Below are positions 17,168 through 22,574 of a stretch of DNA of 64,000 bases, one piece after another. The stretch is from assembly GCF_008932115.1 (NCBI RefSeq), contig NZ_CP044543.1, positions 496,001 through 560,000 on the forward strand. Reading direction: 5' to 3'. The position numbers and the translations under genes are program-made. Position 1 is the stretch's first letter. The number at the start of each line of letters is the position of its first letter. Source of the DNA: Bradyrhizobium betae. Its GTDB lineage: Bacteria > Pseudomonadota > Alphaproteobacteria > Rhizobiales > Xanthobacteraceae. Under the pieces are notes generated by a model, which worked only from the letters and a program-made list of their open reading frames with translations, did not search any database and was not told the DNA's origin.

Positions 17168-17241
17168 TGGCTGGGGAACCTGGATTCGAACCAAGACAAA
17201 CAGAGTCAGAGTCTGTTGTGCTACCGTTACACCATTCCCCA
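17168..17241 (-). tRNA. tRNA-Gln (anticodon CTG)
   Basis: On the minus strand, a 7-bp acceptor stem TGGGGAA/TTCCCCA, discriminator G and encoded CCA. The D-arm contains GTAACGGTAG and the anticodon loop is CTCTGAC, giving anticodon CUG (Gln, codon CAG). The T-loop is TTCGAAT in a 5-bp stem. All arms pair. The 3' end faces the accessory region to the left, the side on which integrative elements insert. Confidence 0.95.
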
Positions 17242-17768: not shown

Positions 17769-18089
17769 CTAATGCGGGCGCCCGATGTCAACGACGATTT
17801 CGCCCTTGCCGGTCGCGATCATCACCTGCCCGTACTCGTCCTGCGGCGGACTTTCCTCGTAGCGAAGCGGGATCGTGGTGATCTCCTCCGGCACTTCGCC
17901 GCCCGGCTGCTGTGTATTGACGTCGAGGATCAGGATCTTTGGATTGATGCCCTGCGGCGAGCGCTTGGTCAGGCGGGCCTGGCAGCCATGGGTCGGCACC
18001 CGCACGTCGCCGATCATGACCAGCTTGGGCGGGGCGCCCGGTGCGCGGTCGATCCAGGCCTTGAAGGTGTTTCTCAGCAGGACAGTCAT
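17769..18089 (-). CDS. Conserved hypothetical protein (106 aa)
   Basis: MTVLLRNTFKAWIDRAPGAP, then KLVMIGDVRVPTHGCQARL and NPKILILDVNTQQPGGEVPE, ending GKGEIVVDIGRPH. Mixed alpha/beta, soluble, no signal peptide. The ATG is preceded by GGAGGGACG on the minus strand, a good ribosome site. Divergent from the BTAD regulator across a region with four tandem repeats. Function unknown. Confidence 0.6.
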   Translation of the reverse strand: MTVLLRNTFKAWIDRAPGAPPKLVMIGDVRVPTHGCQARLTKRSPQGINPKILILDVNTQQPGGEVPEEITTIPLRYEESPPQDEYGQVMIATGKGEIVVDIGRPH

Positions 18090-18608
18090 GACGCGTCCCT
18101 CCTATGCCAAGTTGCGCGATCCTTCGGTCACGGACGCAACATAGGCCGGCGAAGCGAAGCGGAACGTGAATGCCCCGCGAATTGGACACGCGCGCGAGGC
18201 GAACAGGTCAAGCCGCACACGCGAACAAGCTCACCCACGAGCCGCAACCGGATCGCACGCGCCGCACAGGTCACCCAGGACTTCCCCATTCAGGACTTCC
18301 CCATTCGGGACTTCCCCATTCAAGACTTGTCCATTCACGCTCATTTCACGCTCGTCGGCTCGAAATGAGAAGCGCTTCCAATTCGTCCGCCAGGTCGCGT
18401 GTCGATCATTCAGCAACCCTTGACCATCTGACAGCCCAAGATGTACCATTCAGAAATTGCAAAAGATCTGGCGGGCTGCACTCCTGAGCTCACGTGTCAT
18501 TGGTTTCGCGAACAGCGCAAGCCGATCATTTTCATCTCGCCAAGCCTAAGCTCCCGGGACCTGCCCTCCTGCACTGTCGTCGACGATGTCGACGGGGAAT
18601 GGGACGAG
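18090..18608. other. Long upstream region of the BTAD-regulator operon
   Basis: 519 bp separating the hypothetical gene at 17769 from the preferred regulator start. It holds the 15-bp tandem repeats at 18278-18337. An in-frame ATG at 18441 would extend the regulator by 56 residues that look unlike the rest of the protein (Cys- and Trp-containing, no domain), so translation there is doubted. Confidence 0.45.
18278..18337. repeat. Four 15-bp direct tandem repeats
   Basis: Unit GGACTTCCCCATTCA: copies at 18278-18292 (exact), 18293-18307 (last base G), 18308-18322 (exact) and 18323-18337 (AGACTTGTCCATTCA). They lie upstream of the BTAD-family regulator gene, within the divergent promoter region. 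They look like a multi-site operator, possibly for that regulator itself. Confidence 0.85.
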
Positions 18609-20642
18609 ATGTCGGGAGTCAACGATGACAAGGCAGTTGGCAAGGCCGAGACCGGCCGGCTGAGGCTCAACATCATCGGAGCATTTTCGGCGTCGGTGGA
18701 TGGACACGAGATCGGCCTCAGCCGAAAGGCGCAAGCGCTTCTCGGTTACATGGTGCTCTCCTCCGCACGCCAATTGCCCAGGACAAAATTGGTCGGGCTG
18801 CTCTGGAGCGAGAAGGAAGACCCGCTCGCGAAAGGCTCGCTGCGTCAATCGCTCAGTCAGATCCAGCGCGAGTTCAAGGCGCGCGGCTGCACGCATTTCC
18901 ATGCGGACCAGATGCATGTGGCGCTCGAGATCGAACGGGTGGCCTGTGATGTGATGGAAATCGTCGCGGATGCCGAACGCGGCATCGTTCATCCGACCCT
19001 GCTGGCGCGCGAACGCCTGGCCGACGACATTCTCGACGATCTGGAGGGTGTCGATCCGGCGTTTTCGGAGTGGCTTGCGGAGACGCGACCGCTGATCCAC
19101 GAGCGGTTGATCGATGCGCTGACAAGGCTGTTGCCCGACGAGACCGCGACGATCGTTACGGCCACAGCGGAGGCTGCGGCGAAGGCCATCCTCCGGCTGG
19201 ATTCAGAGAACGAACGAGCCGTTCGTGTCCTCATCAGGAGCCACATCACGGCTGGCAGTATCGGCGCGGCGCTCGCGATCTACGCGCGGCTCTGGCGCCA
19301 GTTGGAAGACACTTACGATATCGAGCCGCACAAGCTCACGCAGGACCTGATAACCGGCTTGCGACAGCAGCAGCCGGAAATTGTCGCACGGCCGGCGCCG
19401 CCCCCCGTTGCGGCACCCGCGGTCGGCATGGTTGGATTTGCTGCCAGCCGACCGTCGGTCGCCGTTCTCCCCTTTCGCGCACTGTCGCCAACGCTGGAGC
19501 CTCAATTCACGATCGGAATCGTCGACAGCGTCGTCCAGGCCTTGTCGAGCTTGAAGGAGCTGCTCGTCATCTCCCGGGGATCGACGATGATCCCGATATC
19601 GCAGACGCTGGATCTGCGCGCAATTGGCCGCGATCTCAATGCCCAATATCTGCTTCATGGGAGCATTCAGCGTGCCGGAAATCAGATCCGGATTTCGACC
19701 GAACTCGTTGCCGCCGAGACGGTTGAGGTCGTCCGCGTCGATCGTCTCAGCGGAACCGCAGCCGACGTCTTCGACCTGCAGGATCGCATCGCCGTCGAGG
19801 TCATACGCTCGCTGGCGCCCCAGGTCCGCGACCGGGAGCTTCATCGCGCAATGCAAAAGAGGCCCGACGATCTCGACGCCTACCAGCTGGCCCTGGTCGG
19901 CTACGATCAGATGTTCAGTCCGGATTACACCACGTTCGTGACGGCGCGAACCAATTTCGAGCGCGCGCATGTGCTCAGCCCGGGCTGGGCGCCGCCTCTC
20001 TCCGACAGCGCCATCTGGCACATGCAGCGCGTGGCGCGCGGATGGTCTGCGAACGCGCCGGCCGAGCTCGACACCGCGCGGTCGCTCGCCGAACGTGCGC
20101 TCGATCGCAATTCGTCCGATCCACTCGCCAATGCCGTCGGCGGCTACACGCTGTCGCAATGCAAGCATGATCACGCCGGAGCCCTCAAGCAGCTCGACCG
20201 TGCGATAGAGCTCACACCCAACCTGGCGCTCGCATTCGCATATCGGGCTGCGGTCCATGTTCGCTGCGAGAACCACCAGGAAGCACTGTTCGATACAGCC
20301 ATCAATCTGCGCCTGTCGCCGCGGGACCGGCACGCCTGGTTTGCGGAGATGATTGCGGCTCAGGCACACTTTGCCATGAACGATCTCGACCTGGCGATAG
20401 AACACGCGACGCGCGTCGCGACGCTGCTGCCAAGCAATCAGGTGAACCTGCGCGTTCTCGTTGCCGCACTCGTGGAGAGCGGACGTCTCGACGATGCGCG
20501 GACCTTTGCTCGGCCGCTCGTGACCGCAGGCGAGCTCGACCTGAAGTGGATCGCAACCTCGCCCTGGCCGAAACCGACCCTGGCGCGCATCGGAGCTGCG
20601 CTCTCGCGGCTGGCATCGACACTCCGGCATGGAAACATCTAA
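18609..20642 (+). CDS. BTAD/SARP-like transcriptional regulator with TolB-like and TPR domains
   Basis: About 677 residues from the ATG at 18609 (733 if the ATG at 18441 is used). A winged-helix N-terminus (RLRLNIIGAFSASVDGHEIG, RKAQALLGYMVL, LVGLLWSEKE, LRQSLSQIQREF) is followed by a bacterial transcriptional activator (BTAD) helical domain. Next comes a TolB/FlgO-like domain (RPSVAVLPFRALSP, IGRDLNAQYLLHGSIQRAG), often found in adenylate-cyclase-like regulators. A C-terminal TPR array (LDRAIELTPNLALAFAYRA) ends the protein. It is first in a three-gene operon, 20 bp before the PAP2 gene, and probably controls it. Ligand unknown. Class II of the SARP-like and CadC-like regulators is the nearest match. 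Confidence 0.85.
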   Translation: MSGVNDDKAVGKAETGRLRLNIIGAFSASVDGHEIGLSRKAQALLGYMVLSSARQLPRTKLVGLLWSEKEDPLAKGSLRQSLSQIQREFKARGCTHFHADQMHVALEIERVACDVMEIVADAERGIVHPTLLARERLADDILDDLEGVDPAFSEWLAETRPLIHERLIDALTRLLPDETATIVTATAEAAAKAILRLDSENERAVRVLIRSHITAGSIGAALAIYARLWRQLEDTYDIEPHKLTQDLITGLRQQQPEIVARPAPPPVAAPAVGMVGFAASRPSVAVLPFRALSPTLEPQFTIGIVDSVVQALSSLKELLVISRGSTMIPISQTLDLRAIGRDLNAQYLLHGSIQRAGNQIRISTELVAAETVEVVRVDRLSGTAADVFDLQDRIAVEVIRSLAPQVRDRELHRAMQKRPDDLDAYQLALVGYDQMFSPDYTTFVTARTNFERAHVLSPGWAPPLSDSAIWHMQRVARGWSANAPAELDTARSLAERALDRNSSDPLANAVGGYTLSQCKHDHAGALKQLDRAIELTPNLALAFAYRAAVHVRCENHQEALFDTAINLRLSPRDRHAWFAEMIAAQAHFAMNDLDLAIEHATRVATLLPSNQVNLRVLVAALVESGRLDDARTFARPLVTAGELDLKWIATSPWPKPTLARIGAALSRLASTLRHGNI

Positions 20643-20662
20643 TCGCAACTGAGGAGGCACAT

Positions 20663-21604
20663 ATGGCAGGCGGATATGGCGGTTATGGCGGCTACGGGGG
20701 CTATGGCGGATACGGCGGCTACGGTGGGTATGGAGGATACGGCGGGACTGGCGGATCAGGCGGCGCCATATTCGCCGATCGTGTCAGTCTCCCGTTCGCG
20801 GGGGATCCCGGAATCGAGGGCGCGAGGTTCAATTCCAGCGGCTTTGGCACGAGGCTCTGGTCGACCCGGTGGTACGCGTGGGTGGTGATGTCCGATCTTG
20901 CCCGCCGGGCAGATTGGTTCGACCGCCTCGGCGGGTTTGCACTGTTCGGCACGGGGCCGACACCATGGGACGGAGACCTTGAAGCCGACATCGCCGCATT
21001 GAGAAAGATGACCGAGATACCCTTCTCCGAGCGCGCCGATGCAATCGACGAAATCGTAACGGAGGCCGACGAATTCATCAGCAAGTTCCTGCACCTCGTA
21101 TCCGCGACGGCGACGACCCACCCGGCGACATCGCGCATGCTGATCGTCGCCGACGCGCTCACGGCCTTGATCACGATGCACTACAAGGCTCATTTCAATC
21201 GTCCACGCCCCACGCAGGTGGCCCCCGCATTGATGTCGCCGATCCAGCATGGCGGGCACGCGTCATTCCCCAGCGGCCACGCCGCCCAATCTCACGTCTT
21301 TGCGGCGCTTCTGACGGAAGTCATGCCGAAGTCGCTCAATGCCCCTGCATCGGAAGCTCCCGAGAGAACCACGATCGAGAAGTCGCTTGGCGTCCTTGCC
21401 GACAGAATTTCGCGGAATCGCGAAATCGCCGGCCTTCACTATCCCTCCGATACCAGAGCCGGAGTGACGCTCGCAGCAGCGATCATCGCGAAGATCCTCC
21501 TGGATCGGGCATACCTGCCGAAATTCGCGGAGCTCGTCGAGAATGCGCGGCGCGAGTGGAAGGACACCGGCGTCTTCTCGGGAGGAAAAGATGTCGGAGA
21601 ATGA
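20663..21604 (+). CDS. PAP2/vanadium-haloperoxidase-superfamily protein with N-terminal (GGY)8 tract
   Basis: 313 residues, ATG after GAGGAGG. Residues 3-26 are eight GGY repeats, then GGTGGSGG. The catalytic core has all three superfamily motifs: K175-x6-R182-P183 (KAHFNRPRP), PSGH (203-206) and SR-x7-H-x3-D (S250, R251, H259, D263). These bind phosphate or vanadate, so the protein is a phosphatase or a vanadium-dependent haloperoxidase/chloroperoxidase. It lacks obvious membrane helices and a signal peptide, favouring the soluble haloperoxidase-like group. The Gly/Tyr tract is unusual for the family and may be an oxidisable or adhesive tail. Gene 2 of the operon; its end overlaps the G1-peptidase gene by 14 bp. 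Confidence 0.88.
   Translation: MAGGYGGYGGYGGYGGYGGYGGYGGYGGTGGSGGAIFADRVSLPFAGDPGIEGARFNSSGFGTRLWSTRWYAWVVMSDLARRADWFDRLGGFALFGTGPTPWDGDLEADIAALRKMTEIPFSERADAIDEIVTEADEFISKFLHLVSATATTHPATSRMLIVADALTALITMHYKAHFNRPRPTQVAPALMSPIQHGGHASFPSGHAAQSHVFAALLTEVMPKSLNAPASEAPERTTIEKSLGVLADRISRNREIAGLHYPSDTRAGVTLAAAIIAKILLDRAYLPKFAELVENARREWKDTGVFSGGKDVGE
20669..20740 (+). repeat. In-frame 9-bp tandem repeats encoding (Gly-Gly-Tyr)8
   Basis: Eight consecutive GGN-GGN-TAY triplets of codons with varied third bases. The array is selected at protein level rather than being a fresh slippage product. It encodes residues 3-26 of the PAP2-family protein. Confidence 0.9.
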
Positions 21605-22574
21605 CAGCTACGGCTTCTACGAAGTCGTGCCCGACGGGTTCAATCTCCTCGACGCGACACCTGACAAGCTCGATCTCTACGGCATTCCGCAAAGGCCGGA
21701 TGCCGTCACCGAGCCGCGCCTGTTCGCGTTCTGGAAACGGCTCGTTTCATCGCCGTTCACAGCAAGGCAACCGACGTTCAGCAGCATCGATTCCCCGTCG
21801 CTTGGAGGTCCGCCACAATCGCTGTTGAACTGGTCAGGCGCGCTCATCTCCTCGCCCTCACCCGAGCGGATCGTCTTCGCGACCGCCGGGTGGACGGCAC
21901 CGAACGTGAGTCTACCGTCTTCACCGGCACTCTTTACGCCCTTGAACGATCCAAGATCGTTGTTATGGATAGGCCTCGACGGCCACAATGGCGCGTTGCC
22001 GAACATTTCACTCCCTCAAATCGGCACCGCCCACTGGCCCAATCACAAGCCCCAGCACTTTGCCTGGTGGGAGTGGTGGCGCAACTCTGCGTCGGACGAG
22101 ACGCCAAGGACATCACAGCAAGCAATTACGTTGATCGCCAACCTCCCGATCGATGCCGGCGACGAGGTTCTCGCAGGGCTTGCGGTTCAGGTCAGTGGAG
22201 ACGTCCTGTTCTTCATCAAGAACCAGAGCACGGGTGAATTTCGTTCATTTCTTGCTCGGCCGCCCGGTGTGATCCTGCCGCTTGGATCATCGGTGGAATG
22301 GGTGGTGGAGCGGCCGACAGATCCGCCTAGCCGGAAATTGTACCCGCTTCCCGATTATGGTTCTGTCGATTTCAGATACTGCCTGGCCCGAGCGGCAGCC
22401 AATGGGCCACTCGCGCCAGGGCGTTTGATGACGCTGAACGAGAAGGCACTCATGATCCATATGCGCGAGGCTTTCGCAGATCCCTATCGCACGGCCACGG
22501 TCTCAAGCCCGGCGCTACGCCAGGACCCGGACGGCTCGGTTGGCTTGACATGCAGCTTCAAAGAACCGACATGA
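21591..22574 (+). CDS. G1-family (eqolisin) glutamic peptidase homologue
   Basis: 327 residues, start set by GGAGGAAAAG, overlapping the PAP2 gene end. From residue 80 the protein follows the eqolisin fold in order: NWSGALI, AGWTAPNVSLP (like G-W-T-A/V-P), SLLWIGLDG, LPQIGTA, AWWEWW, IDAGDEV, FIKNQSTGE, VEWVVERP and LPDYGSVDF. The catalytic dyad of scytalidopepsin-type enzymes (Gln53 and Glu136) corresponds to Gln143 (LPQIG) and Glu236 (VEW). Both are present, as is the Glu of W-x-E-W. These acid peptidases are best known from fungi, with bacterial members rare. No signal peptide is seen, which is odd for a family normally secreted. The operon suggests joint work with the PAP2-like protein. 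Confidence 0.78.
   Translation: MSENDSYGFYEVVPDGFNLLDATPDKLDLYGIPQRPDAVTEPRLFAFWKRLVSSPFTARQPTFSSIDSPSLGGPPQSLLNWSGALISSPSPERIVFATAGWTAPNVSLPSSPALFTPLNDPRSLLWIGLDGHNGALPNISLPQIGTAHWPNHKPQHFAWWEWWRNSASDETPRTSQQAITLIANLPIDAGDEVLAGLAVQVSGDVLFFIKNQSTGEFRSFLARPPGVILPLGSSVEWVVERPTDPPSRKLYPLPDYGSVDFRYCLARAAANGPLAPGRLMTLNEKALMIHMREAFADPYRTATVSSPALRQDPDGSVGLTCSFKEPT

Follow-up and report, generated by a model that had tools for sequence, protein, structure and literature searches.

Operon organization in the Bradyrhizobium betae window

The window analysed here is a 64,000-nucleotide stretch of Bradyrhizobium betae DNA (NZ_CP044543.1, positions 496,001 to 560,000). It carries three consecutive forward-strand genes, which encode a regulator with tetratricopeptide (TPR) repeats, a PAP2-fold enzyme that begins with a perfect Gly-Gly-Tyr repeat, and a glutamic peptidase of family G1. 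The first two genes are separated by 20 bp and the last two overlap by 14 bp, an arrangement that agrees with the co-expressed-looking run described in the initial annotation. A Pfam scan of the trio identified BTAD and TPR domains in gene 1, a PAP2 domain in gene 2 and a Peptidase_A4 (G1) domain in gene 3. This trio is one version of a wider module in which the repeat tail of the PAP2 enzyme may be the substrate of a partner peptidase. Its features are as follows.

18609..20642, + strand: regulator, 677 aa, with a winged-helix/BTAD N-terminal region, a TolB/FlgO-like middle and C-terminal TPRs
19047..19355, + strand: BTAD domain of the regulator, residues 147–249 (Pfam)
20166..20540, + strand: TPR region of the regulator, about residues 520–644 (Pfam)
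20663..21604, + strand: PAP2-fold enzyme, 313 aa (PF01569, 1.6e-11), adjoining regulator and peptidase in 43 of 43 G1 modules
20669..20740, + strand: (Gly-Gly-Tyr)8 array, residues 3–26, 8 copies in 7 codon spellings; the PAP2 protein begins MA(GGY)8
21185..21451, + strand: PAP2 active-site stretch (Lys175, Arg182, Pro-Ser-Gly-His206, Arg253, His259, Asp263)
21591..22574, + strand: G1 (Peptidase_A4) glutamic peptidase, 327 aa (PF01828, 1.1e-21)
22017..22019, + strand: codon of the predicted catalytic Gln143
22308..22310, + strand: codon of the predicted catalytic Glu240

An in-frame ATG is present upstream of the regulator at 18441, yet homologues align from 18609. The FlgO and Trans_reg_C matches of this protein fall under their Pfam cut-offs. 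It also matches part of the NCBIfam model NF009037 (HilA/EilA family) with 18.4 bits against a cut-off of 589 bits; the domain order is similar, and the regulator is not a member of that family.

The second protein contains the K-R, PSGH and R-x5-H motifs of the PAP2 superfamily. Six residues of the site (K139, R146, H170, R217, H223 and D227 in core numbering) are identical in all 15 diverse members compared, and PSGH shows variation at its Ser or Gly in some of them. The initial annotation had described a haloperoxidase-fold enzyme. The fold is supported by the PF01569 match, and haloperoxidases as well as phosphatases match in the profile search. Acid phosphatases come first among the PDB profile matches (best 6.6e-13), with bromoperoxidases among the next (best 6.3e-07), and we therefore label the protein a PAP2 enzyme rather than a haloperoxidase. 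Class A acid phosphatases and vanadium haloperoxidases, which provide these best matches, share its K...RP, PSGH and R-x5-H-x3-D residues; we know of none with a repeat tail or a peptidase partner.

The PF01828 match of the third protein scores 77.7 bits, over a cut-off of 22.3. A search of structures with the single sequence matched none of family G1; an 11-row profile of the family matches aspergillopepsin II (6.7e-11) and scytalidopepsin B (2.3e-05). Gln143 and Glu240 correspond in the alignment to Gln24 and Glu110 in the heavy chain of aspergillopepsin II, which we take to be its catalytic dyad, and neither residue varies among the 43 homologues, in keeping with the earlier assignment to the eqolisins with both catalytic residues present. 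AlphaFold2 models, built from alignments of only six rows, had a mean predicted local distance difference test score of 32.1 for the PAP2 enzyme and 31.4 for the G1 peptidase, values too low to bear on either fold; the eqolisin assignment is thus one by sequence profile. No signal peptide or transmembrane segment was apparent in the three products from 19-residue Kyte-Doolittle averages (maxima 1.35–1.45; no dedicated predictor was used); the initial annotation had likewise noted no obvious export signal.

Conservation of the trio

Of 265 genus genomes, 46 contain a match to a G1 profile, and the neighbourhood of each was read. Regulator, PAP2 and G1 genes are adjacent in 41 of them, so that the co-occurrence on which the initial annotation had made its proposal depend is indeed found. 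Four neighbourhoods (L086, L104, L105 and L106) retain a 3'-terminal remnant of the G1 gene and neither partner, which suggests that the module was lost as a block; the remaining neighbourhood, on the 5-kb contig L107, contains a distant G1 that stands alone. The 41 loci, together with the named strain L026 (42 in the genus) and with L102 from another alphaproteobacterial family, make up 43 complete G1 modules, all of which keep the gene order and the catalytic dyad. The genes that flank these modules vary between clades, which identifies the trio as the unit. Searches with the Pfam model, which is less sensitive than our profile, detected G1 in 9 of the 296 family genomes and 3 of the 398 phylum genomes.

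At an E value of 1e-30 or better, 77 of the 265 genus genomes together contain 87 matches to a PAP2 profile. The 41 top matches (335–401 bits) come from exactly the 41 genomes with the triad, and the next 46 start at 193 bits.

G1 peptidases can also exist without this module. No tblastn match to PAP2 or regulator was obtained in the 5–20 kb around the G1 genes of other genera of the family (L019–L024), and neither partner is annotated within 8 kb of solitary G1 genes on Burkholderia/Caballeronia plasmids (annotation only, not profile searches). Two of the latter, L030 and L031 (CP000617.1 and NZ_CP084275.1), lie on conjugative plasmids with the same replicon and relaxase types.

Exchange of the peptidase and of the regulator output domain

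The weaker PAP2 matches of the genus belong to loci built on the same plan with other peptidases. A regulator of the same kind lies upstream in 45 of the 46; the contig of the other (L124) begins inside the PAP2 gene. The nearby peptidase is a C70 (AvrRpt2-family) cysteine peptidase in 12, an S8 subtilase in 19 and a protein with an HExxH motif in 14. At L109 the S8 gene is divergent and upstream of the regulator, and the contig of L125 ends too soon. The HExxH protein, of about 815–930 aa, is encoded convergently to PAP2 and has no Pfam match; from its sequence, it is possibly a member of an undescribed metallopeptidase family. Examples are found at L116 (7260-9728, − strand), L154 (7085-9862, − strand) and L174.

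Pfam assigned 28 of 55 non-G1 partners to S8 and 12 to C70; the 15 with neither match correspond well to the 14 HExxH proteins plus an S8-like protein at L167. Simple motif searches were positive for 12 of 12 C70 partners and for HExxH in 14 of 14 in the genus. The S8 Ser box was detected in 28 of 29, the His box in 28 and the Asp box in 26, and the single Ser-box miss reads GTSAAT by eye.

Beyond the genus, a 15-row PAP2 profile (A8) matched 51 places in 47 of 367 genomes of the order, and PAP2 profile searches of the phylum matched 41 places in 36 of 398 genomes. Ten of 16 further places in the order have a regulator, a tailed PAP2 and an S8 peptidase; L166 has a regulator and a tailed PAP2 at a contig end, L155 a regulator and a PAP2 without an N-terminal tail, and L157–L159 and L168 a PAP2 alone. 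In the phylum, 18 of 20 further places have a tailed PAP2 with a peptidase, S8 in 17 and HExxH in 1, and a regulator-type gene no more than 4 kb away; the other two (L187 and L191) have no tail, peptidase or regulator. A Paracoccus plasmid carries a SARP regulator, a PAP2 with NAH-TAQ repeats and an S8 peptidase, and a Bosea plasmid a broken, solitary PAP2 that is outside the counts. The plan is thus distributed across Proteobacteria. Overall, 120 of 126 PAP2 loci scanned are module members and 117 of these 120 have a nearby peptidase (43 G1; the others C70, S8 or HExxH), proportions that are not unbiased frequencies since the order and phylum places were taken mostly from the best matches, 29 and 12 mostly weaker ones lie outside the counts, and plain PAP2s are under-sampled. 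The haloperoxidase–eqolisin pair of the initial annotation is too narrow a description; what is conserved is the association of PAP2 with a peptidase, which can belong to any of several classes.

Nine genus genomes contain two or three modules (PAP2 E ≤ 1e-30), and the peptidase classes differ within all nine. The host genome (G000) has one Peptidase_A4 gene and a second repeat-tailed PAP2 at 6.81 Mb. This second module (L164, G000:C1:6803500-6817500) consists of a divergent winged-helix/TPR regulator, called by eye and from a weak profile match, a PAP2 with an (SGE)8 tail and an overlapping S8 gene.

In PAP2 trees of 105 and 66 rows, both rooted at the midpoint and with long branches flagged by the tool, the G1, C70 and HExxH partners each correspond to one clade among S8-bearing lineages. 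The simplest reading of these trees would be an S8 ancestor followed by three displacements at a single operon position. That position is filled by three known peptidase classes and a putative metallopeptidase family outside Pfam; as these are unrelated, the common need looks like proteolysis rather than one particular fold. The output domain of the regulator is swapped as well: in divergent modules a class III nucleotide cyclase replaces BTAD as the N-terminal half, and the 44 regulators scanned, out of 100 extracted, contain Guanylate_cyc in 29 cases and BTAD in 6.

Exact repeats in the PAP2 tails

The array in the window is a perfect tandem of 24 residues, a length that rules out a chance origin, as none of 2000 composition-preserving shuffles exceeded 10. 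Exact tandem arrays were found by a script in 116 of the 126 PAP2 open reading frames and comprise 996 units of 39 types, with periods of 3 (72 arrays), 2 (20), 5 (13), 4 (8) and 1 (3). The types include GGY, GNT, GM, GGNWF, FD, NK, AGR and polyG, and 30 of the 39 contain Gly. Arrays are present in 116 of 120 module PAP2s versus none of six PAP2s that lack regulator and peptidase. The module PAP2s without an array are L121, L124 (contig edge), L145 (degenerate GGNWF) and L155. The L121 frame is broken near its poly-Gly array, by mutation or by an assembly error in G-rich DNA.

The units are exact in protein and scrambled in DNA, whichever peptidase kind accompanies them. Adjacent units are identical in DNA in 127 of 880 pairs, versus 115.8 expected from codon usage pooled over loci, a figure that takes no account of dinucleotide bias; related arrays are not independent of each other. 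The 155 units of the 18 GGY arrays have 25 codon spellings. Since neighbouring units are identical in DNA at near the chance rate, the repeats look old and appear to be kept exact by selection, and recent slippage as the sole cause is rejected on average. Some arrays have few spellings, such as that of L088 (5 copies, 2 spellings).

Such exact repetition, whatever the residues, calls for a function, and to our knowledge no known family explains it. The initial annotation had suggested that the tyrosine-rich tail is halogenated or oxidatively cross-linked by its own enzyme. A Tyr in each unit of the window array, and a fold common with vanadium haloperoxidases, would suit this chemistry. Among the 39 unit types, however, Tyr occurs only in GGY, which is used by 18 of 43 G1 modules; the remaining 25 have GNA, GNT, GDT or GDM units, and every non-G1 array found lacks Tyr. 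The diversity of the units thus largely refutes tyrosine chemistry, which we regard as scarcely credible.

The tails could instead be targeting, scaffolding or condensation segments (a solubility tag, a multivalent anchor or a filament former), with peptidase and PAP2 acting together on other substrates. Their low complexity and prevalent glycine would be consistent with such a role, yet one defined by composition would need no perfect units, and the units, from FD and NK to AGR and polyG, have no common chemistry; we consider this explanation unlikely. Some ribosomally synthesized and post-translationally modified peptides have multicopy cores and dedicated peptidases, and the co-conservation of the module could reflect an array of such cores fused to a tailoring PAP2 and cut by the partner peptidase. 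The units, however, have no shared modifiable residues, and in the G1 modules no gene beside the trio is common to all clades as the flanks change, which leaves this proposal very improbable.

The tail as a candidate substrate of the partner peptidase

We tentatively favour, at somewhat under an even chance, a cognate relationship in which the tail is cut by the partner peptidase, under control of the TPR regulator. In its favour, PAP2 and regulator are retained where the peptidase is replaced, arrays accompany peptidases, the exact repetition looks selected, and the peptidase classes differ within genomes that contain several modules. The module would comprise three parts: a TPR regulator whose output domain can be exchanged (winged helix/BTAD or class III nucleotide cyclase), a soluble enzyme of the PAP2 superfamily whose N-terminal repeat is hypervariable but internally perfect, and a cognate endopeptidase of replaceable class (G1 here; S8, C70 or HExxH elsewhere). 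The regulator would induce the operon, after which the peptidase would cut the repeats; cutting would switch the PAP2 enzyme, by release, unmasking or relocation, and/or free short repeat peptides. That relatives retain the plan but differ in both the repeat and the kind of peptidase hints at an undescribed signalling or self-activation system. A substrate role for the tail, one of the possibilities raised in the initial annotation, is retained as the best explanation, with the cleavage itself and its consequences something that we infer.

The best single datum for a peptidase acting on the tail, though no proof, is the pair L152/L153. Every tail unit is changed from GGM to GGF between these loci, while the PAP2 cores are 96% identical and the flanking open reading frames 94–98%. 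Their S8 peptidases are 79% identical, whereas none of the 87 same-tail pairs with comparable PAP2 identity falls under 0.87. The differences are concentrated in the N-terminal 200 residues (window identities of 0.50–0.68) and at residues 451–500 (0.46), versus 0.80–0.98 elsewhere.

Several points weigh against a substrate role. Co-change was tested over 629 pairs that share a peptidase class and have PAP2 identities of 0.5 or more (435 with the same tail, 194 with different tails), which gave L152/L153 as the one strong pair and no general trend; outside this pair, different tails are accompanied by no consistent excess of peptidase change. As a rule the peptidases diverge more rapidly than PAP2, and the S8 proteins of a same-tail pair, L162/L163, likewise vary most in the N-terminal part. 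Tail type follows PAP2 phylogeny, so the matching of tail to peptidase depends on few independent events. The S8 enzymes are paired with widely differing units, and tails rich in glycine occur with all four partner kinds. The six tail-less PAP2s are a small set, with weaker PAP2 matches mostly outside it. At L155, moreover, the PAP2 ends in SLSLSLSL and no recognised peptidase is nearby, the contig not ending nearby; a PAP2 without tail or peptidase may still work. A 417-aa neighbour at this locus (L155:9944-11197) may be related to DyP-type peroxidases, which it resembles by eye.

The characterised bacterial G1 enzyme, pepG1, bears on the same question. According to PMC3009609, pepG1 shares the Peptidase_A4 domain and Gln/Glu dyad of the window protein, has a signal peptide, is secreted and was assayed at acid pH, its family being acid-active. 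The window proteins, without an apparent export signal, differ in this respect, a further point against cleavage of the tail as we propose it; the close relatives of the window G1 are, in addition, locked into an operon with PAP2. Disordered N termini can be export signals, and as pepG1 is secreted, an unrecognised secretion route might carry PAP2 and peptidase out of the cell, with the repeats as export signal. No secretion genes were found among the clustered neighbours of the G1 modules (the rest of the genomes was not searched) and no Sec-type signal in the window proteins, and we consider export of the pair improbable.

A further alternative resembles RRNPP signalling: the peptidase would free a repeated short peptide, the TPR domain would bind it, and transcription or cyclic-nucleotide synthesis would change, with PAP2 as carrier or output enzyme. 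TPRs are present in the module regulators, as in RRNPP receptors, with peptide binding by them hypothetical; the identical copies of each array would suit a peptide read by a receptor. The last 100 residues of the regulator change beside a tail switch in L152/L153 (0.72, versus 0.97 before, the rest of the regulator being nearly unchanged); for L178/L184 the values are 0.72 versus 0.90. However, there is no wider excess of change at the regulator C terminus when tails differ, and same-tail pairs change more in the 0.68–0.80 bin (0.113 versus 0.004). The regulator end also adjoins the tail in DNA, and one recombination tract could explain L152/L153. Units of two or three residues are shorter than the pheromones known to us, and we see no route for export or import. 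Protease-cut, tandemly duplicated propeptides are described for RRNPPA systems in PMC11343458. On balance, we judge this alternative unlikely.

A bolder extension, which we also think unlikely, is a hypervariable peptide code, written many times on the end of PAP2, cut by a private peptidase and read by the TPR regulator of transcriptional or cyclic-nucleotide type. If so, code, cutter and reader would vary in concert, and channels within one cell would be insulated from each other or strains could tell self from non-self.

Comparison with known systems

Among the matches listed in the open-licence PMC literature, we found no description of a PAP2-repeat/peptidase association, nor of a haloperoxidase–eqolisin system, as the initial annotation had supposed. 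The excerpt of PMC7159879, on peptidase-rich conflict systems, makes no mention of PAP2 or haloperoxidase, and that of PMC12419801 mentions PAP2 only in other contexts.

Three known systems are comparable to the module that we propose. In gasdermin–protease pairs (bacterial bGSDM operons and fungal HET-Q1/HET-Q2), the effector likewise adjoins a cognate protease, subtilase or caspase-like, which cuts a terminal segment of the effector. That effector is a pore former rather than a PAP2, and no perfect hypervariable repeat or TPR cyclase/BTAD regulator is mentioned in the excerpt (PMC10989679). In antiviral nuclease–protease pairs (Hachiman, AVAST, canu), a pro-enzyme is unmasked by an interchangeable protease; these combine a metallo-β-lactamase-fold nuclease with trypsin or caspase proteases, and the excerpted text (PMC12799240) mentions no tandem-repeat tail. 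The window genes have no PADLOC match. The receptors of RRNPPA quorum sensing are TPR proteins. Its short peptides occur in tandem copies processed by proteases (PMC11343458). Those propeptides are secreted and belong to Bacillota, unlike the present repeats, which are carried on a PAP2 enzyme in Proteobacteria with no visible export.

The modules offer many natural candidate protease–substrate pairs and a testable prediction, that of a partner peptidase acting against its repeat. They also provide a context for PAP2, G1, C70, S8 and cyclase-TPR genes that are now annotated separately.

Neighbouring genes and other observations

PADLOC component models gave no match for P0001–P0003. Among the 8 proteins scanned, weak matches were obtained for one cyclase-type regulator (PycC, 8.5e-06) and for one S8 partner (subtilase, 6.1e-05).

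Two features lie upstream of the module.

17769-18089, − strand: P0004, a 106-aa conserved hypothetical protein, divergent from the regulator, no Pfam match
17168-17241, − strand: tRNA-Gln (ctg), 1.4 kb upstream of the module

Clustering of neighbours placed P0004 beside 16 of 42 G1-module loci, those of BTAD type. It was rejected as a fourth conserved gene, being limited to these loci and outside the general module. The tRNA gene is a possible integration site.

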